33,480 nt of DNA from Planctomycetaceae bacterium (lineage in GTDB: Bacteria; Planctomycetota; Planctomycetia; Planctomycetales; Planctomycetaceae). Both the position numbers and the translations under genes were made by a program. The notes below the pieces were generated by a model. That model saw nothing but the letters and a program-made list of their open reading frames with translations. It was not told the origin of the DNA and did not search any database. The stretch covers positions 1-33,480 of the forward strand of contig JAKFVC010000153.1 in the NCBI GenBank assembly GCA_021732415.1. The letters run 5' to 3'. Every line of letters starts with the position of its first letter. The first letter of the stretch is position 1. Below, one piece after another: positions 11,717 through 33,216 of this stretch.

Positions 11717-11788
11717 GTGGATTGTGAATTTACAGGGATGGTGCGAGAAATCTCGCGCTGCGAATGGACAGGCAAACCAAAGCATTTG

Positions 11789-11900
11789 TCTTTCTTCGTG
11801 TCCTTCGTGACCTTCTGTTCAAAACAGTATTGGAACAGAAGGTCACAAAGGACACGAAGGACGAAGAATCCGGGGGCTTACGCCGCCCGACTCGCCTGGA
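11789..11900. repeat. Inverted repeat plus half of another element
   Basis: Arms at 11789-11820 (cttcgtgtccttcgtgacc, then ttctgttc) and 11833-11866 (gaacagaaggtcac, then aaaggacacgaagg) pair closely around a 12-base loop. Directly after, 11861-11898 carries the right-arm sequence of the middle layer at 8884-8922 (aatccgggggcttacgccgc) with no matching left arm, so half of that element is missing. The repeat lies between dnaK and clpB. It may limit read-through from dnaK, but no T-run is present. Confidence 0.85.
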
Positions 11901-11959
11901 TTCAGGTTAGTGTAACCGGGCCGGAGGCGATATTGGCCCCCGGCCCGCGAATCCCATCT

Positions 11960-13864
11960 CTACTTCTTTTCAAACTCGGCATCGATGACATCGTCATCCG
12001 CCTTCGCGCCACCGCCGGCCGGACCACCTTCGGCACCCGGCTGGCCCTTGGCACCCTGCTCGTACATGTGCTTCGAGAGCGCATGAGCCGCCGTATTCAG
12101 CTCTTCGACGGCCTGCTCGATGGCCGCGGCGTCTTCGCCGGCTTCCTTTTCCTTGACCTTGGCAATGGCCGCTTCGATCGCCGACTTCGAACCCGCATCC
12201 AACTTGTCGGCGTGTTCTTTCAGCAACTTCTCGGTCTGGTAGGTCAGGGTCGAAGCCTGGTTGCGAGCTTCGGCCAGCTTGCGCTTCCGAGCGTCTTCGG
12301 CCGCGTTGATCTCGGCGTCCTTCTGCATCTTCTGGATTTCCGCTTCGCTCAGGCCGCTGGATTGTTCGATCCGCACGGTCTGTTCCTTGCCAGTCCCCAG
12401 GTCCTTCGCCGAGACATTCAAAATGCCGTTGGCGTCCAGATTGAAGGTGACCTGAATCTGCGGCACACCGCGCGGGGCCGGCGGAATGCCATCCAGGTTG
12501 AACTGTCCGAGCATCCGGTTATCGCGTGCCATCGGGCGTTCGCCCTGGAACACGGTCACCGTCACCGCGGTCTGGTTGTCGGCGGCCGTCGAGAACGATT
12601 CCTTCTTCTCGGTCGGAATCGTGGTGTTGCGTTCGACCAGCTTGGTCATCACGCCACCTTCGGTTTCAATACCGAGCGACAACGGAGTCACGTCGAGCAG
12701 CAGGATGTCCTTGACTTCGCCCGCCAGAACGCCGCCTTGAATGGCCGCGCCGATGGCCACGACTTCGTCAGGGTTCACACCCTTGTGCGGCTCTTTGCCG
12801 AACATTTGCTTGACGATTTCCTGTACCTTCGGAATACGGGTCGAACCACCGACCAGCACGACCTCATCAATGTCTTTCGGCGACAGTTTCGCGTCCTTCA
12901 ACGCGTTCAGCACCGGCTGACGGCAACGGTCGAACAAGTGGTCGCAGATCCGCTCGAATTCCGCCCGGGTGATCGACATCTGCAAGTGCTTCGCACCGCT
13001 GGCATCGGCCGTGATGAACGGCAGATTGATGTCGGTCTGCTGTTGTCCGGACAATTCCTTCTTGGCCTTTTCGGCTGCTTCACGCAACCGCTGCAACGCC
13101 ATCGCGTCCTTACGCAGATCGATGCCATGTTCCTGCTGGAATTTGCCGGCGATGACCTTGATCAACTCTTCGTCGAAGTCATCACCACCGAGGTGCGTGT
13201 CACCGTTGGTGCTGACCACTTCGAACACACCGTCGGAAGACACATCGAGGACCGATACGTCGAACGTACCGCCACCCAGGTCGAACACGACGATCTTCTC
13301 GTCTTTCTTCTTATCGAGGCCATAAGCCAAGGCAGCAGCAGTCGGTTCGTTGATGATACGAGCGACTTCCAAACCAGCAATCTGGCCGGCGTCCTTGGTT
13401 GCCTGACGCTGAGCATCGTTGAAGTACGCGGGCACCGTGATCACCGCCTGGTTGACCTTGTGGCCCAGGTAGGCTTCGGCCGCTTCCTTCAACTTACGCA
13501 AGACGTACGCCGAGATTTCCGGCGGCGTCATCTGCTTGTCAGCGATCTGTACTTTGACGTAATCCGCGGGACCACCGACGACGGGGTACGGCACCAGCTT
13601 CTCTTCCGAGGCGACTTCGTTGTGTCGACGCCCCATGAAACGCTTGATCGAGTACACCGTTTTCTTGGGGTTGGTGACGGCCTGCCGCTTGGCGGGGTCG
13701 CCGACCAGAATGTCACCTTTATCCGTGAACGCCACGACGCTCGCCGTCAGGCGGTTACCGTCTTGATTCGCGATGACCTTGGCCTCGCCGCCTTCCATGA
13801 TGGCGACCACCGAGTTGGTTGTTCCGAGGTCAATCCCGATGATCTTCTCACCACGCGATGCCAT
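11960..13864 (-). CDS. dnaK: Chaperone DnaK (Hsp70)
   Basis: ATP-driven chaperone that binds exposed hydrophobic segments of client proteins and hands aggregates to ClpB. The 634-aa product has normal length. The nucleotide-binding domain (1-380) shows [34 protein letters not shown] and [14 protein letters not shown]. The interdomain linker region reads [17 protein letters not shown], followed by the substrate-binding domain and a helical lid. The tail is Gly-rich and ends in [12 protein letters not shown], the usual C-terminal signature. ATG 13864 has CAGGAG about 8 bases upstream. No grpE or dnaJ lies in the window, so this is not the classical grpE-dnaK-dnaJ cluster. Confidence 0.99.
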
Positions 13865-14442
13865 GTTCCTGTCTCCTGAAATTGCTTGAAGTCTATCTAT
13901 TGAATCGAGTCATCCGGTGTGACCCGGAAGCTCGTTTCGGTAGTCAGCATCCTATCGATGAATGCTGCGGTAGTTGGTTTCATCCTGTCCGCCGAGACAC
14001 ATTTTCGACTTAACGTCTCGCCAGCAGGGACATTACCGCAATAAGGCAAAGCGTGTGCCAACTATTGTGAACTTCATCAATTCGCCGTAACCATTATTCA
14101 ATGAATGGGTTGCGAACACATCTGTGTTCATGCGAATCCAATTGCGGCCAGTTTTGCTGCCAGATTGGCAACCACTCAGGCAGCAGTCGAATTTTTAGAC
14201 GCTGTCAATTTGGCACCGCTCCGGCATTCAGAGCATCACAGCAGGGAGTCGCGCGGGTGCTCTGGGGATCAAGACCTTGAGGAAGGAAGTCCCGACAGGG
14301 ACGACAGAACCTAGCCGTAGGCGTGAGCCCACGGTCTCGACGAAGCAAGATCTAAGCCCTGAATGGGCGACACTTTGCCGACGGGGCGAAACTCGTGGTG
14401 CCGCCCTTTCGGGGCTACATCCTGAAGGGTATTTCGACGTCA
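13865..14442. other. Non-coding region upstream of dnaK
   Basis: No convincing gene. The part next to dnaK should hold its promoter. Two inverted repeats are visible there: cagcat with atgctg around an 11-base spacer near 13947-13969, and cgagac with gtctcg (13993-13998 and 14015-14020). No CIRCE operator is present. A further palindrome, gaacaca-tc-tgtgttc, lies at about 14113-14128. From about 14270 to 14425 the sequence has short palindromic pieces (gtcccgacagggac; cgtaggcgtgagcccacgg) that read like remnants of further repeat families. Confidence 0.4.
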
Positions 14443-26072: not shown

Positions 26073-26210
26073 TGATGGGAGGGCGAGGCTCCCGCCGAGC
26101 CTAAGACGAGCTTTAGCTCGGCGTCCGCCGGAGGCATTTTAACATCCGGCCTCCGGCGGACGCCGACCTGCGGTCGTGTTAGGCTCGGCGGGAGCCTCGC
26201 CCTCCCATCA
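26073..26210. repeat. Perfect 32-bp inverted repeat enclosing a second hairpin
   Basis: Arms at 26073-26104 (tgatgggagggcgaggctcc, then cgccgagcctaa) and 26179-26210 are exact reverse complements over 32 bases. Inside, a second inverted repeat has arms 26118-26135 (tcggcgtccgccggaggc) and 26149-26166, exact over 18 bases, with small hairpins on each side (gagctttagctc). It is a diverged relative of the gggagggtgagg family. It separates the divergent sigma gene and DUF2339 gene, 20 bases from the sigma start. From 26211 to 26445 no gene or clear promoter is evident. Confidence 0.92.
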
Positions 26211-26445
26211 GCCGTGTCCGACAATCGACTTCTGGTATTTGTCTTTCAAGCTCAATCATGCCAATCGTTTTCCCCATTCGCAACAAATTCCCGCATCCAT
26301 GCGTGATATTCGTTACGAGATTCCGCCTCAATTGCTGGGAACTCCCCGAAATCACTGTCGCCAGCTGTATTTACACCGTACTGTGCGTGAGAGCATCTGT
26401 TTTCGATGCGTCATGCTGGTTGCTGCGGAAAGGCTCGGATCCATC

Positions 26446-29400
26446 ATGGAAGTCCTGTTTGGCCTGGTATTTGGGTTCGCGGCCCTGGCCTATCTGATTT
26501 GGGCCTTTGCCACACCGTTCGTGGTCGTCAGCCTCAGCACGCGTGTCACGCAGCTTGAAGAGCAATTGAAGGAACTGCAGCGCAAGCTGGCGGCCAGTCG
26601 CTTGCCAGAAAAGACCTTCGAGAAACCACCCGTAGTGTCTTCGGCACCTGTCTCGCCCGTCGTCACGAGCCCCCCGCTGGGTGCATCGCTGGCGGCGGCC
26701 AGCGACATGAAAGTCGAACCCGAACCGCAACTCAAGCCACCGGTTCCGCCCAGCCGGCCAGTCCCGCAATACGACGTGCCGCGAGAAGAGTCGCGTAAAC
26801 CAGCGGAACTCATCACCCCGCCAGAGCCGGTCGTCCCTCCTTCGATTCCGGTGGTCCCCCCTTCTCTTCCGACGCCAGTTCCCGTCCCGACGAGACCTGT
26901 CGATCCCGCGATCACTCCCTATCCCGTCGCCAAGCCACAGCCGGCTCCCGCTCCACTACCAATGCCGACACGCGTTCCCGCGCCGGTCGCAGCCGCGGTG
27001 CCGGTCGCCCACAAGTCGCTCACGGCCACCAGCGAGGATGAACCCTCAACACTGGAAGAGATTCTGGCGGGAAAATGGCTTACTTGGGTGGGAGCCCTCG
27101 CGGTCATTATCGGTGCGGGCTTCGGGTTCAAGTATGCCATTGAAAACCACTGGATCGGGAACAACGAACGGGTGCTGATCGGCATCTTCACCGGCCTGGC
27201 CTGCTTCGCTGGCGGGGCGTATGCGATGACCCGCAAGTACCGGTTCCTGGCTCAAGGTCTGACCGGTTCGGGATTGGGCGTGCTGTATCTGTCTTTGTAC
27301 GCCGCCTTCGGCTGGTACAACGTCCTGTCTTACGAGACCGCCTTCCTGGGGATGATCCTCACCACTACGCTGGGTCTTTCGTTTGCCGGGTATTTCGATG
27401 TGCAGCCGACCGCGGTGCTGGGCATGTTGGGCGGGTTCTTGACGCCGGCCATGTTGTGGCCCAGCCACGATCCGTTCTGGACGTTGTTTCCCTACCTGTT
27501 GATGCTCGATCTGGGAGTCCTGCTGATCGCCGGCATCCGCCGCTGGGCAGGGCTCGAAATTGTCGCGTTCTGTGGCACGCTGATTATCTGGTTCAGTTGG
27601 CACCGGCAATTCTATGACGGTGAACACCTCGCCGTGACCGCCGGTTTCATGACCGCCTTCTTCGCACTGTTTGCACTCCTGAGCGTCTGGCACAACGTGA
27701 TTCGACGCCGGAAAGCCTCGGCGGCCGACTTCTTCCTGATCATGGCCACGCCGACGGCGTACTTCGCCACATTGTATGCACTGACTTACAAACAACTACC
27801 GCAATGGCAGACCGAATTCGCCTTGCTGATGATGCTGTTCTACGCGGCGATGGCCTATCTCGCCCGAGTCTGGCATCCGGCGGGAAAATCGGTCATCGCG
27901 GCGCTGGCGGGACTGTCGGCCACCTTCCTGATCATTTCAGTACCGGTCGAACTGACAGGGCACTGGGTCACCATCTGCTGGATCGCTCAGGCGGTCTTGC
28001 TGGTCGAACTGGGTCTGTACTTCCGCGAGAAAGCGCTCCTCTGGACGGGCCTGGCGTTGCTGTTCAAAGTCCAGGGCATTCTGCTGATTTACTTCTTCGG
28101 GACGCTGGCCGACCCGGTGCATTTCCAAACGCAGTTCGTGCGGATCCAGCTCGAGTTGATTGGCCGTCCGGAAATTCCTCTCGATACTGCCCAAGGCTGG
28201 ATGTCGCTCATCAACGGCCGGTCGCTGAGCTACCTGGCGGATGTCCTCGGATTTGCCCTGCTGGCTTGGGAACTGGGCCGGCGTAAGGATGATCCGGAAC
28301 TGCGGGCGCTCTGGCCGCAGAGTGACGTCTGGCAGATGTGGATCAACATCGCGGTGCCCCTGATGGCCCTGACGATGATCACTCTCGAGACCTTCGCCTG
28401 GGGTGTCATCTCGCGCTGGGACATGGCGACGATCGTCAGTGCCTGGGCGATCTGGGCGTCGGTGTTCGCGTGCGGAACCATTTTCTGGAGCAAGGCGTTC
28501 CGGGCTCAAGGCCTCGAAGGTCTGGGGTGGATGCTGTGCCTGCTGGTGGGTGGGTTCCTGTTCTTCACGACTACGGATGCGATGCGCTATTCGGCAATGA
28601 GCGGCGATCTGATTCCGCTGCATCGTGTGCATGCCATGTGGCTCTTCAATCCGCGTGGTTTCGGCGTGCTGACAGCCATTCTGTCGAGTGCCGTGATCGC
28701 CTGGATCTACCAATGGGAAGCCTCTCGGAAATCACGCGAGGGAAATACCGACCAGGCTTTCTCTACGGAGCAACTGGCCTGTTGGTTTGGTTCATGTGCG
28801 TATCTGTTGGGATTGGGACTGGTCCTGATGGAAACGCGGGTCTGGGCCATTCATCACCATTGGCTCGTGGCGACGCTCCTCACGGCTAGTGTCACCTGGG
28901 TGGCCGTGTTCATGCAGGGTCCCATTTCATGGCGGGTCACTCGTCGAGACGATTGGGTTGAGGCGTTGATTTATCCGACTTTGATCCTGATGGAATTCTT
29001 CCTCGTCTGCAGCGGATTGAGCATGCTGGCGACCCTCGAGACTCCGGAACGAGCCTTGACGATTGGAGAATGGTGGTTCGTCAATCAACGTAGCGCCGGG
29101 TTCGGGATCGCGATCTTGGGATGCCTGCTGGGTGTTGTGATCTGCCGCCGGCTGCCGCGTGGGACCGAACCGCGTCCACAGGCGGATGTCAGTCTGCCCA
29201 ACGTGCTGGCTGTGGCCGCCTTCTTAAATGCTCTGGCGATGGTCTGGCTGGAAACGTTTGCCTGGGGAAAACTTCACGGCTGGGATCAGTCACTGATCGC
29301 CAGCGTGTGGACCATCTGGACCGCAGGGTTCGCGTGCGGAGCGATCTACTGGAGTGAGACCACCAATTCCCGCCACATCGAACGCCTGGGTTGGGCGCTG

Positions 29401-30915
29401 TGGATGGTGCTGGCCGGCCTGGTGGGATTCAATTCTCTGGAAGCCTTGTCGCTGGCCCAACCCAACTCGATCATCCCGGCACATCGACTGGCCGCCTACT
29501 GGTTGCTGAATCCCAGGGGAATCAGTTTTCTGACCGTGATCCTCGCCGGTATCGCTGTGTCGTACATCTACGGAGCCCTGCGCCGCCGCAATGCTGCAGG
29601 AGACTGGGCGTCGCCAGATCTCAATTCGGAGAATCTGTCGGCACTGTTCGCTGGGGCGATTTTCTACCTGGGGCTCTGGACGGTGCTGCTGGAGACGTGG
29701 GTCTGGGGAGGGAATGCCGTCTGGTTGCCGCCCACCAAATTGAGTGCCTGTGCCAGTTGGGTCAGCCTGTTTATGTTGGGTGCCGTCCTCTGGCGGGTGG
29801 AGCGGGCGACTCGCTGGGTTGAGCAATTGGTGTCGGCGACGTTCGCGATCCTGTTTGCGTTCCTGATTCCCAGTACGATCAAGATCCTGGTCACGCTCAG
29901 TTCCGACGTGAATGCGGGGACAGATACGGCAATCGACTGGTGGTTGATCAATCCGCGCGGCCTCGGTTACCTGGCCGCGGTCGCGGGATGCGGGCTGGGG
30001 GCCTTGTGCTACCGCCGACTGGCGCCGGACAATCAAATCCCCAGTCAGTTCGGCCAGGGGACCCAGTTGGGCATCGCGGCCTATGTGCTGGGTCTGTGGA
30101 CGGTCCTACTGGAGACGACCGCGTGGGGTTACCCGCACGGTTGGCTGGTGGGGACCCTGGTCGCCGCCAGCGCGATCTGGATTGCCCTGTTCCTGGTGGG
30201 GTTGGTCGGCTGGTCGGTACGTCAGCGGACGGCAGACTTCGACGCGTTGGTGGTCCTGGTGTTTGCCGGTTTGATTCTCAGCTTGTTCGCACTGTCGGCG
30301 GGCTCTATGGCCAGTGTCAATCTGCATGAAGTGGTGGCGAAACGTGCGTTCCGACTGGAGCTGGAAAACTGGATCCTAAATCCTCGGTTCATCGCGTTCC
30401 TGGTCTCGATCCTCGCGACGGGAATCTCCGCACGGCTGTATCGTGGACCGGATCACAAATGGAAAATTGCCGATGCCACAACCAGCAGTGTCGAAAAAAC
30501 GCTGAATCTGGGGATGGAGTTCGCCATCGTGTCCTACCTGGCAGGCTTGGTGATGTTCTCGCTGGAAGTCTTCGTCCAGGGAACTTCCCGCGACTGGCAC
30601 ACCGCGACCAGCCTGGCGATCACGTTGGTCTGGACGACCTACGCCACGTTGACGCTGATCGGCGGCATCTATTGGAAGTCAGGCTGGATCCGGGCGTTTT
30701 CGCTAGGTTTGCTGGTGATTACCGTCGGCAAAGTCTTCCTGTTTGATGTCTGGCATCTGGACACCGTGATCCGCGTCTTCGCGTTCATCTCGCTGGGGGT
30801 GGCGTTGTTGCTGGTGTCGTTCCTGTATCGGCGGTACCGCGAACGGATCCGGTCGTGGATTGTGCCGGTCGCGCGCCCGCCTGAGGCAGTTGTCGGGCAA
30901 CCCGATGCCGAATGA
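26446..30915 (+). CDS. Giant DUF2339 multi-pass membrane protein
   Basis: Integral membrane protein of 1489 aa, function unknown. I chose ATG 26446 (MEVLFGLVFGFAALAYLIW); the frame is open upstream, but that part reads through a palindromic repeat and looks non-coding. The ribosome-binding site (GGAAAGG, 12 bases upstream) is only moderate. Order: one TM helix (1-30), a coiled coil (TQLEEQLKELQRKL), a Pro-rich linker (about 60-200), then the DUF2339 hallmark LEEILAGKWLTWVGALAVIIGAGF (first 20 residues quoted in part: EEILAGKWLTWVGALAVI) and dozens of TM helices. From about residue 500 two anchors alternate with a period near 145: LETxxWG-like (500, 647, 794, 935, 1082, 1222, 1373) and W-x-x-NPRG-like (588, 733, 876, 1019, 1166, 1308). 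DUF2339 proteins are usually shorter, so the module seems amplified. Confidence 0.88.
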   Translation: MEVLFGLVFGFAALAYLIWAFATPFVVVSLSTRVTQLEEQLKELQRKLAASRLPEKTFEKPPVVSSAPVSPVVTSPPLGASLAAASDMKVEPEPQLKPPVPPSRPVPQYDVPREESRKPAELITPPEPVVPPSIPVVPPSLPTPVPVPTRPVDPAITPYPVAKPQPAPAPLPMPTRVPAPVAAAVPVAHKSLTATSEDEPSTLEEILAGKWLTWVGALAVIIGAGFGFKYAIENHWIGNNERVLIGIFTGLACFAGGAYAMTRKYRFLAQGLTGSGLGVLYLSLYAAFGWYNVLSYETAFLGMILTTTLGLSFAGYFDVQPTAVLGMLGGFLTPAMLWPSHDPFWTLFPYLLMLDLGVLLIAGIRRWAGLEIVAFCGTLIIWFSWHRQFYDGEHLAVTAGFMTAFFALFALLSVWHNVIRRRKASAADFFLIMATPTAYFATLYALTYKQLPQWQTEFALLMMLFYAAMAYLARVWHPAGKSVIAALAGLSATFLIISVPVELTGHWVTICWIAQAVLLVELGLYFREKALLWTGLALLFKVQGILLIYFFGTLADPVHFQTQFVRIQLELIGRPEIPLDTAQGWMSLINGRSLSYLADVLGFALLAWELGRRKDDPELRALWPQSDVWQMWINIAVPLMALTMITLETFAWGVISRWDMATIVSAWAIWASVFACGTIFWSKAFRAQGLEGLGWMLCLLVGGFLFFTTTDAMRYSAMSGDLIPLHRVHAMWLFNPRGFGVLTAILSSAVIAWIYQWEASRKSREGNTDQAFSTEQLACWFGSCAYLLGLGLVLMETRVWAIHHHWLVATLLTASVTWVAVFMQGPISWRVTRRDDWVEALIYPTLILMEFFLVCSGLSMLATLETPERALTIGEWWFVNQRSAGFGIAILGCLLGVVICRRLPRGTEPRPQADVSLPNVLAVAAFLNALAMVWLETFAWGKLHGWDQSLIASVWTIWTAGFACGAIYWSETTNSRHIERLGWALWMVLAGLVGFNSLEALSLAQPNSIIPAHRLAAYWLLNPRGISFLTVILAGIAVSYIYGALRRRNAAGDWASPDLNSENLSALFAGAIFYLGLWTVLLETWVWGGNAVWLPPTKLSACASWVSLFMLGAVLWRVERATRWVEQLVSATFAILFAFLIPSTIKILVTLSSDVNAGTDTAIDWWLINPRGLGYLAAVAGCGLGALCYRRLAPDNQIPSQFGQGTQLGIAAYVLGLWTVLLETTAWGYPHGWLVGTLVAASAIWIALFLVGLVGWSVRQRTADFDALVVLVFAGLILSLFALSAGSMASVNLHEVVAKRAFRLELENWILNPRFIAFLVSILATGISARLYRGPDHKWKIADATTSSVEKTLNLGMEFAIVSYLAGLVMFSLEVFVQGTSRDWHTATSLAITLVWTTYATLTLIGGIYWKSGWIRAFSLGLLVITVGKVFLFDVWHLDTVIRVFAFISLGVALLLVSFLYRRYRERIRSWIVPVARPPEAVVGQPDAE

Positions 30916-30931
30916 TTAGGTTCGCATTTGA

Positions 30932-30976
30932 TGGGACTTATGGGACACATGGGACGGATGGGACTTATGGGATTGG
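30932..30976 (+). repeat. 9-bp tandem repeat, five units
   Basis: Five consecutive 9-base units of the form tgggacnna (tgggactta, tgggacaca, tgggacgga, tgggactta, tgggattgg). It begins 17 bases after the DUF2339 gene stop. The period is a multiple of three, but no surrounding gene is in frame with it. Confidence 0.9.
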
Positions 30977-30987
30977 ACTAGTCGATG

Positions 30988-31055
30988 CCCCGTGGCCGAA
31001 ACTGCCAGCGTCGGAGACACGGACGCTGGCAGCGTCCGCCACGGGGGCGTGCCCC
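30988..31055. repeat. Inverted repeat, ccccgtggc family, second copy
   Basis: 25-base arms at 30988-31012 and 31022-31046 pair with three mismatches. They share ccccgtggccga and ctgccagcgtcgga with the element at 20859-20916. A small extra hairpin (ggggcgtgcccc) overlaps the right end. The remaining bases to 31206 form the mutL leader, with no gene visible. Confidence 0.88.
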
Positions 31056-31206
31056 CATAGGCCAACAATTTGCCCAACGTTCGCCCAAACAGCGACCAGT
31101 CGTTATCATGCAAAGTTGACCTGCCACAGCGGGCCAGGGGTGACTGCGAACGTGTTGCGAAGTCCCCCAGCCGCTTCCACTTTGACTGATATACCACTTT
31201 CAACGC

Positions 31207-33216
31207 ATGGCCCGCATCAATCAACTCAGTTCGAGTGTCGTCAATCGCATCGCTGCCGGGGAAGTCATCGAACGACCGGCCAGTGTGGTCAAGGAACTGC
31301 TCGAAAACAGCGTCGATGCCCTGGCCAATCGGATCGAAGTGGATGTCGTCGATGGCGGAGCCGAACTGATTCGCATCAGCGATGACGGCGAGGGGATTCA
31401 TCGCGACGATTTGTTGCTCGCGGTGACGACGCATGCGACCAGCAAGCTCAGCGAAGCGGATGATCTGTTTCGCGTGCAGACGATGGGCTTCCGTGGGGAG
31501 GCCCTCGCGTCGATCGCGGAAGTCAGCAACTTTCGACTACGGACCCGGCAGGCCGACAATGACGCCGGGATGGAGCTGGAAGTCAACGGTGGCGTCATTT
31601 CCCCGCCACGCGAATGTGGCTGCCCGCTGGGGACGACGATTGAAGTCAAACAGCTCTTTTTCAACACACCGGTACGCCGCAAGTTCATGCGGTCTTCGGG
31701 GACCGAACTCGGCCACATTTGCGAGCAATTTACCCGCATTGCCCTCGCCAATCCGCGGTTGCACCTCGTGCTGCGGCACAATCAAAAGGTGGTCTACGAA
31801 CTCCCGGCCACGGACAAACTGCTCGACAGGTTGAAACTGTTCTACGGGGCCCAATTGGCCGAGCAGTTGATCTGGGTGGAAACGACTCTCAACAACTATC
31901 GAGTCTGGGGTTATGCAGCTCATCCGAGTCAAAGTAAGGCGACGCGTAAGGGCGAATACCTGTTTCTCAACGGACGCTGGATTCAAGACCGTTCACTGCA
32001 ACACGCCTTGACCGAGGCCTACCGCGGCCTGTTGATGGTGGGCCGCTATCCCATCACCTTCCTCTTCCTGGAGATGCCTCCGGACGAAGTCGACGTCAAC
32101 GTCCACCCGACCAAGGCCGAGGTCCGATTTCAAGACAGTCAAACGTTGTTCCGCCTGCTGTTGTCGGCATTGCGGACCAAGTTCCTGGGGATGAATCTCG
32201 AAAGCCAGATCAAGGTCCCGTCGGCTGGTTCCGGAGAACTCAAGCCGCAACCGGTGCCAGAGCCTCAACGGCCGTTGCCGCTACGAGAAGAGTTGAATTC
32301 CTGGGCCGACTCGCAATTCGGTGGCAGCTCACCGGCACCTACCGGCGGCACACCGCGGAGTTCGTCCATCCCCTGGTCGACGACATCGCAGGCCCCGTTC
32401 AAACCCTTCCCTGACAACGGACAGCCGTCGTATCGCCCAGCAACTACGAATTGGTCCGAGCCGACTCCGATCGTTGCGCAGCGGGAAAACTCAGAAGGTT
32501 CCGCAGTCGCGGTTGTCGAGGAATCCGTTCCCTCGACCGTGGAATCGACTGAATCGACATCGGAGTCAGCGATCCATCCCGTTTCGGCCCCGGCCCCCTC
32601 CGCGCCGACGGAATCGAACTCTCAAGCTTCCAGCTTACCACCCGCATTTCGGGCGATGCAGGTTCATGACTGCTATCTGGTCGTCGAATCGGATGAGGGA
32701 TTGACCGTCATCGATCAGCATGCCTTGCACGAACGGATCATGTACGAGCATCTCCGCGAGCGCGTGCTGGGTGGAAATGTCGAATCGCAGCGTCTGCTGC
32801 TGCCGGAGGCGATTGACCTGAGTCCCCCGGAAGCGTCGGTGTTGTTGGAACATGCGGCAATCCTGGCCCAGATCGGATTGGAGATCTCGGATTTCGGCGG
32901 CCATACGGTCTTGCTGAGCCGCTATCCGGTGATGTTGCGGAAGCTGAATTTGGCGGAACTCGTCAAGGACATCGCCCAGCAGTTGTGTGAAAGCGGCCTG
33001 GCGCCGACTCGCCGCGATATTCTGGATGAATTGCTGCACATGATGTCGTGCAAGGCCGCCATCAAGGCGGGGCAGCGACTGACCGCCGAGGAAATCGAAA
33101 GCCTGCTCGCCCAGCGGCACCTTATCGACGATGCGCACCATTGCCCACATGGCCGGCCGACGTCGCTCACGCTAAGCCGCATGGAGTTGGATCGCCAGTT
33201 TGGTCGGCTGGGATAA
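31207..33216 (+). CDS. mutL: DNA mismatch repair protein MutL
   Basis: Cytoplasmic mismatch-repair ATPase and nicking enzyme that links MutS recognition to strand excision. 669 aa. The N-terminal GHKL ATPase (about 1-330) shows VVNRIAAGEVIERPASVVKE, ELLENSVDA, DDGEGI and TMGFRGEAL. A Pro/Ser-rich linker covers about 335-475. The C-terminal dimerisation and endonuclease domain carries DQHALHERIMYE at 503-514 (D-Q-H-A-x2-E-x4-E), SCKAAIKAG at 614-622 and CPHGRP at 646-651. These endonuclease motifs mean that this MutL nicks DNA itself, as in most bacteria without MutH. No mutS is in the window. ATG 31207 fits the family start; the ribosome-binding site is weak. Confidence 0.98.
   Translation: MARINQLSSSVVNRIAAGEVIERPASVVKELLENSVDALANRIEVDVVDGGAELIRISDDGEGIHRDDLLLAVTTHATSKLSEADDLFRVQTMGFRGEALASIAEVSNFRLRTRQADNDAGMELEVNGGVISPPRECGCPLGTTIEVKQLFFNTPVRRKFMRSSGTELGHICEQFTRIALANPRLHLVLRHNQKVVYELPATDKLLDRLKLFYGAQLAEQLIWVETTLNNYRVWGYAAHPSQSKATRKGEYLFLNGRWIQDRSLQHALTEAYRGLLMVGRYPITFLFLEMPPDEVDVNVHPTKAEVRFQDSQTLFRLLLSALRTKFLGMNLESQIKVPSAGSGELKPQPVPEPQRPLPLREELNSWADSQFGGSSPAPTGGTPRSSSIPWSTTSQAPFKPFPDNGQPSYRPATTNWSEPTPIVAQRENSEGSAVAVVEESVPSTVESTESTSESAIHPVSAPAPSAPTESNSQASSLPPAFRAMQVHDCYLVVESDEGLTVIDQHALHERIMYEHLRERVLGGNVESQRLLLPEAIDLSPPEASVLLEHAAILAQIGLEISDFGGHTVLLSRYPVMLRKLNLAELVKDIAQQLCESGLAPTRRDILDELLHMMSCKAAIKAGQRLTAEEIESLLAQRHLIDDAHHCPHGRPTSLTLSRMELDRQFGRLG

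Follow-up and report, generated by a model that had tools for sequence, protein, structure and literature searches.

Amplified middle modules in a DUF2339 (Arc3A-family) membrane protein of a Planctomycetaceae bacterium

Introduction

A long membrane protein with a repeated module is encoded in a stretch of 33,480 nucleotides from a Planctomycetaceae bacterium (contig JAKFVC010000153.1; the whole stretch is here called the window). The locus raises the question of what exactly has been repeated, how the copies relate to the ordinary parts of a DUF2339 protein, and what the additional copies may do. According to the consulted parts of its published description (PMC8926400), Arc3A of Pseudomonas aeruginosa has 35 predicted transmembrane (TM) segments, and its relatives are composed of DUF2339 and have ‘large, yet varying numbers’ of such segments. 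Arc3A is needed in this species against a phospholipase effector, and its loss leads to the accumulation of lysophosphatidylethanolamine and monolysocardiolipin; a neighbouring arc3B gene (DUF3999) is usual yet dispensable for the assignment of a protein to Arc3A (PMC8926400). Protection by Arc3A against lipase effectors is confirmed in the consulted part of a 2025 paper (PMC12663445). No account of modules in DUF2339/Arc3A was found in the literature searched, including these parts of both papers, and the word ‘repeat’ is absent from the main text of PMC8926400.

Gene and domain layout

The gene product (Table 1) shows 35 hydropathy peaks and matches Pfam PF10101 (DUF2339) at 272.3 bits (cut-off 33.6, E 1.4e-80), the match being significant across the core and the ends of the protein; the N-terminal core and the last module that are conserved in the family are both present. 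The organism’s own genome (9.87 Mb, 350 contigs, 98% complete) contains two DUF2339 matches, both inside this gene. A longer frame, 26176-30915 (+), opens at GTG 26176 and is probably not used. ATG 26446 is the likely start, favoured because the frames of two congeners open just ahead of the equivalent Met, and residues are numbered from it (M1). The region before the core evolves fast, with 73% identity to congener L050 for residues 1-195 compared with 95% for the core.

Table 1. Predicted features of the DUF2339 gene and its product, in window coordinates
Feature	Position	Strand	Basis or remark
DUF2339 (Arc3A-family) gene	26446..30915	+	1489 aa from ATG; Pfam PF10101 272 bits, cut-off 33.6
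N-terminal hydrophobic anchor, residues 3-21, without cysteine	26452..26508	+	hydropathy peak and sequence
Linker, coiled-coil-like then Pro-rich (by eye), fast evolving	26509..27030	+	identity to L050
N-terminal membrane core, residues 196-473, family-conserved, not detectably modular	27031..27864	+	
Module U1, family ‘first’ module, without TM1 Glu	27865..28290	+	
Module U2, type A, amplified middle	28291..28731	+	
Module U3, type B, amplified middle	28732..29157	+	
Module U4, type A', basis of the structure model	29158..29595	+	groups with U2 at 100/98
Module U5, type B'	29596..30018	+	groups with U3 at 99/53
Module U6, type C, middle	30019..30468	+	joins module 4 of 5 of sister L043 (85/47)
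Module U7, family-conserved ‘last’ module	30469..30855	+	
Short C-terminal tail	30856..30912	+	fused DUF3999 (Arc3B) begins here in eight relatives

The neighbouring genes are a kinase gene and mutL, an arrangement that two of the three congeners examined share and that is absent in all six other relatives. As a clue to function the neighbourhood was rejected, kinase and mutL being uninformative on lipids and the genes in the relatives scanned being unrelated. The window also contains PSD1/PSCyt2 domains (Pfam). A frame at 11717-13879 (+) matches Pfam NAD-GH (565 bits), and a clear Hsp70 gene runs antisense to it (11960-13864, -); the NAD-GH frame is probably a shadow frame, and NAD-GH itself may be a shadow-frame family. 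A 157-aa frame beginning at the DUF2339 stop (30912-31385, +) overlaps mutL by about 180 bases, has no Pfam match and is probably not a gene.

Evidence for the repeat

Residues 474-1470 of the protein consist of seven tandem homologous modules of about 145 residues. LETxxWG-like anchors start at residues 501, 647, 795, 935, 1082, 1222 and 1373, and NPRG-like anchors at 588, 733, 877, 1020, 1167 and 1310. The constant spacing of both had been proposed in a sequence-only reading, whose numbers are 1-2 residues off at most. That reading placed the repeat at 27940-30600, where it is indeed found; the array is slightly longer (27865-30855). Self-comparison of the protein gave the off-diagonal signal expected of a repeat. 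Autocorrelation peaked at a lag of 287 (Z 7.8), equal to two modules, with weaker peaks at 140 and 147 (Z 3.5 and 3.0); the longer lag is the strongest because U2 with U4 (41% identity) and U3 with U5 (37%) are closer than adjacent modules. Smith-Waterman comparison of the seven units, with 300 shuffles per pair as baseline, gave Z 4.5-43 for the 15 pairs among U2-U7, although for the lowest of these, U5-U7 (Z 4.5), the top shuffle score (71) exceeds the real one (64). For the six pairs involving U1, Z was -0.4 to 3.8, and single sequences are thus not enough to establish U1 securely. A profile of U2-U7 finds modules in relatives, and on iteration the profile recovers U1.

Profile-based detection also returned seven modules in the window protein (33.5-93.2 bits, E 1.2e-10 to 4.2e-29) with a held-out HMM made of 121 modules from outside the genus, these training modules having originally been picked by iteration from the window units. 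The same HMM found seven modules in each of the three congeners as well, the scores across all four proteins of the genus spanning 20.6-93.4 bits. The lowest score was that of a module in L051, a protein whose N-terminus is lost at a contig end and whose seven modules all lie within the remaining part. With each of the other two module HMMs, 52 reversed control sequences gave no match at E<1e-3, and 52 locally shuffled ones gave one and three matches (best 11.0 and 15.4 bits); a chance repeat was ruled out by these controls. Pfam DUF2339 matches only two of the 14 single modules of the window protein and of L060, a protein found by contig scan on the same contig as L050. No second Pfam-A family matched the modules convincingly at loose thresholds (best other E 0.0047, in one member), and profile search of the rest of the window revealed no further module copies (next best E 0.47). 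That the array is an artefact of assembly or chance might be suspected, most of the assemblies being drafts, but seven modules occur in four separate assemblies and the window copies are mutually only 20-41% identical, a divergence beyond what assembly error makes; an assembly artefact is refuted on both grounds, and we regard artefact of either kind as practically negligible.

First, middle and last modules

Separate ‘first’, ‘mid’ and ‘last’ profiles were built from 47 three-module proteins, with the genus of the window organism left out, and match one another at 94.6-96.9% probability. Of the profiles built from the genus itself, W1 matches ‘first’ at 99.6%, W7 matches ‘last’ at 99.9% and W2-W6 match ‘mid’ at 94.5-96.5%, with W4 matching ‘last’ (94.9%) about as well as ‘mid’. 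The W1 profile, that of U1 built from the congeners, reaches only 9% with ‘mid’ and 61% with ‘last’, which shows how far U1 has diverged from the other modules. In a tree of 105 of 173 modules, from 29 proteins, the first modules cluster together and the last modules, with few exceptions, occupy a single region. Window modules U2-U6 sit among 39 middle modules, while the other nine, from the clade with an Arc3B operon, adjoin the last modules of their own clade; ‘middle’ is therefore not one group.

By these profiles and the tree, U1 and U7 correspond to the ordinary first and last modules of the family, and the amplification concerns the five modules between them (U2-U6). The suggestion that the later copies are amplified versions thus holds for U2-U6, while U7 is the ordinary C-terminal module. 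Profiles and module counts bear out that ordinary DUF2339 proteins contain the module too and that it has expanded here. Those with three modules have the same first and last module as the window protein and differ in having one middle module compared with its five.

The idea that the module is the structural unit of the whole family stands for the C-terminal part and is not supported for the N-terminal core, in which no secure module was detected. Compared with halves of the core (residues 196-473), the ‘first’, ‘mid’ and ‘last’ profiles stayed at or below 1.0% and single window-module profiles did not exceed 5.2%, except where 16-25 columns matched along the border of two pieces. These border matches persist after trimming and are put down to cuts being placed differently in different proteins. 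Weak lone matches occur in the core of a few distant proteins, such as L093 and L062 (10.9 bits each).

Pattern of expansion and module number in relatives

In three of the four congeneric proteins, that of the window among them, the order of modules is first-A-B-A'-B'-C-last, A grouping with A' at 100/98 and B with B' at 99/53. L051 (= L106, genome G001) has first-A-B-B-B-C-last, its modules 3-5 forming one clade (100/95) with 44-60% mutual identity, a pattern resembling the overwriting of a module by an adjacent one. Since the middles of L051 differ from those of its congeners, the equal total of seven has been reached with different middles. Part of the expansion went by pairs (A-B-A'-B'), which accounts for the lag of 287. 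Between the window protein and two congeners, dN/dS is 0.05-0.11 for the core, U1 and U7 and 0.09-0.36 for U2-U6, and in both comparisons the middle modules have a higher dN than the core and ends. These rates point to a slowly evolving core and ends and to middle modules that change faster but, like all parts, are under purifying selection.

DUF2339 is present in 82 of 150 genomes of the family and in 102 of 294 of the phylum. Modules were counted in 94 proteins, namely the window protein and those of 93 loci (91 from genomes and two from plasmids), the homologues being picked by score with unusual lengths favoured, so that the tally is not a random sample. Three modules were detected in 50 proteins, two in 19, one in 12, four in six, five in three (L083 and L086 among them) and seven in four, the window protein and three congeners. 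Among these 94, three is therefore the usual number and seven is confined to the genus, an outcome of the homologue survey that fits the proposed expansion. The counting was iterated on proteins that were later counted; two intermediate rounds produced one and two reversed matches and the last round none. Proteins with one or two detected modules probably include long distant ones in which the profile misses modules. Because the profile is weak far from the window family (one module in 12 of 94 proteins, which reach 1405 aa), seven is not an established maximum for DUF2339. In four proteobacterial relatives (L125-L128) reliable detection was limited to one first-like module and one last module, with space for others between the two. 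A search of viral contigs for relatives confirmed none.

The sister of the genus (99/94), L043 from genome G129, resembles the window protein in its core and likewise has no Arc3B found, but carries five modules compared with seven.

Module structure and conserved residues

A single-module model of U4, with the 14 modules of the window protein and L060 as input rows, reached pLDDT 79.8 and pTM 0.66. It has helices at 13-39, 44-69, 72-99, 108-117 and 119-144, that is, four long helices and a short one right before the NPRG anchor. Each module is accordingly modelled as four predicted TM helices with a short helix before this anchor; four hydropathy peaks are present in all seven modules at the looser cut-off of 1.0, with U1 and U5 showing three at 1.3. 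A two-module model has the same helix order in both modules at low confidence (pLDDT 53.7), so that a shared fold is only indicated. No clear match of the module to a solved structure was obtained by sequence. Foldseek comparison of the module model with PDB chains gave 64 matches, none at E 0.001 or better, and the best VIA Z (9.3) was to a soluble helical bundle, the top VIA-align rows being soluble or designed bundles below the tool’s level for helical models.

The division into modules allowed conservation to be compared across 149 modules of 52 proteins, in which an Arg is kept in 145 and a Trp in 140. All 49 middle modules and all 48 last modules have a Glu, and 47 of the 52 labelled first have Pro in its place; the Glu-Arg pair is thus not obligatory. 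In the 14 modules of the window protein and L060, Lys and Arg make up about 18% of the TM2-TM3 loop and the inter-module linker, compared with 4% and 10% of the other two loops, and by the positive-inside rule this concentration would place the Glu and Arg towards the periplasm. The natural fusions described below agree, having an Arg-rich end of the last module followed by a hydrophobic stretch and then the Arc3B domain, which is expected in the periplasm according to the part of the Arc3A description consulted (PMC8926400).

Arc3B in relatives of the window protein

No Arc3B was found in the window itself, nor in the genome of the window organism with either Pfam DUF3999 or a planctomycete profile, so the whole Arc3 complex is probably absent. 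In the phylum sample Pfam DUF3999 matched six of 98 genomes and exceeded its cut-off in three, in all three adjoining DUF2339, which ties these relatives to the Arc3 operon. In this sample the Pfam model lacks sensitivity: it gives nothing in G007, yet a profile built from the three cases over the cut-off detects a clear Arc3B-like frame just downstream of the DUF2339 gene of this genome. With that profile 37 of 94 loci have such a frame on the downstream side, usually one that is already open where DUF2339 stops. Fewer than 600 downstream bases are available at 39 of the 94 loci, which makes a lack of Arc3B beside these weakly informative.

In eight proteins of the same planctomycete family (L013, L014, L024, L026, L031, L032, L040 (= L111) and L048), some of them close kin, DUF3999 is fused to the C-terminus of DUF2339 as an extension of about 430 aa, which in L048 is cut by a contig end. 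The four fusions scanned with Pfam DUF3999 score 51-78 bits, all above its cut-off of 30. In profile comparison the seven long extensions jointly match stand-alone Arc3B genes at 100%. All eight have a hydrophobic, signal-peptide-like stretch before DUF3999, with an AxA-type end in six (by eye), and a fusion might therefore be cut into two chains. The fused proteins belong to the same 19-row clade as the window protein (98/99) and, unlike it, have three modules (four in L040) and a C-terminal Arc3B domain.

On the Escherichia coli plasmid pF16EC0470-1, the DUF2339 gene (L128) is followed by two short annotated frames, one of them a DUF3999 gene that looks incomplete, and the locus adjoins recombinase and tail-fibre genes. 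At one further locus a CDP-alcohol phosphatidyltransferase lies close by on the upstream side.

Proposed function and alternative explanations

Like Arc3A of P. aeruginosa (PA5114), the window protein is a DUF2339 protein with a large number of TM segments, 35 in both, counted in the window protein as hydropathy peaks by a cruder method than the published one; it differs in its gene neighbours and in the lack of an Arc3B match in its genome. On this analogy we favour, with a probability of about 0.6, the reading that it is an inner-membrane lipid-homeostasis protein of the DUF2339/Arc3A family, composed of an anchor, a core, fixed ends and an amplified middle, with putative headgroup sites. 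The five middle modules would be the product of successive tandem duplications, some of them involving a two-module block, and with four TM helices per module any number of modules could be added without a change of topology. Each module after the first would present a putative lipid-headgroup site near the periplasmic side, formed by the Glu that ends TM1 and the Arg that begins TM4, together with a Trp within TM2, and additional modules would increase the number or the variety of lipid sites. With a lipid function inherited from the family, the protein would prevent an accumulation of lysophospholipids, or of damaged lipids of another kind, like Arc3A in Pseudomonas. A role for the copy number itself is something that we infer. 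The organism’s genome also encodes, on another contig than the DUF2339 gene, an MFS-acyltransferase-AMP-binding protein with the layout of LplT-Aas (G000:C9:42498-43772, L119), which makes a lysophospholipid repair route plausible in this organism; its LplT match (NF008397) is 113 bits, far under the curated cut-off of 297.

The number of copies may instead reflect neutral drift, in which duplicates arising from unequal exchange are tolerated and seven copies have no meaning of their own. Each copy adds an even number of helices and could for this reason be tolerated, detected module numbers span one or two to seven, and within one genus the same total is built from different middles (three B-type modules in L051, B-A'-B' in the others). 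Yet all four congeners keep seven even though the middles of L051 are only 27-45% identical to the window modules in the same places, and U2-U6 still show dN/dS values of 0.09-0.36 in comparison with the two nearer congeners, which makes drift somewhat unlikely. A role of the middle modules as structural spacers, widening the membrane part for a partner or a membrane domain without lipid sites of their own, is in our opinion unlikely. The Glu, Trp and Arg would then hold helices together; conservation of Trp and Arg in every module type also fits such a role in folding, and the higher dN of the middle modules than of the core and ends is what a scaffold would show. Purifying selection on these modules and the Glu in all the middle modules examined speak against it, and some of the extra copies might be expected to have lost charged residues that serve in packing only.

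It is also conceivable that the extra modules replace a lost partner, Arc3B. A 58-row tree of the core and last module, outside which L083 and L086 with their five detected modules lie, contains one clade of 36 rows, all with three modules and 31 with Arc3B downstream. The clade of the window protein consists of the eight fused proteins and 11 in which no Arc3B was seen, and these 11 have seven (four proteins), five (one), four (two) and three (four) modules, so that in this tree five and seven modules occur only in members without Arc3B. The planctomycete profile gave no Arc3B match elsewhere in any of the genomes of these 11, three of which are 85-88% complete; the only positives of this search were G031 and G068, both with rows in the profile. 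Four window-type proteins without Arc3B still have three modules, however, as do G072 and G035 of the other clade, where no Arc3B match was found either, and the fused L040 has four. With so few independent events a connection of Arc3B loss with module gain is worth following but not established, and replacement appears very doubtful. A wider proposal would make DUF2339/Arc3A proteins extensible lipid-handling arrays with a Glu/Trp/Arg headgroup site on the periplasmic side of each middle module, enlarged to as many as seven modules in lineages without Arc3B to take over its work; we offer it as speculation and think it quite unlikely in this full form.

Implications for the DUF2339 family

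The DUF2339 family was known, and what is new is the expansion of middle modules between two fixed ends. DUF2339 proteins thereby gain a parts list, with one core, a fixed module at either end and a middle of variable length that may explain why ‘varying numbers’ of TM segments have been published for them. The division into modules also shows which residues recur from one module to the next. That these form an extensible set of putative lipid sites is an idea, with the function taken by analogy from Arc3A. The natural fusions with Arc3B constitute independent genetic support for the reported association of Arc3A and Arc3B, and the handling of lysophospholipids by Arc3A becomes testable through the removal of whole modules.
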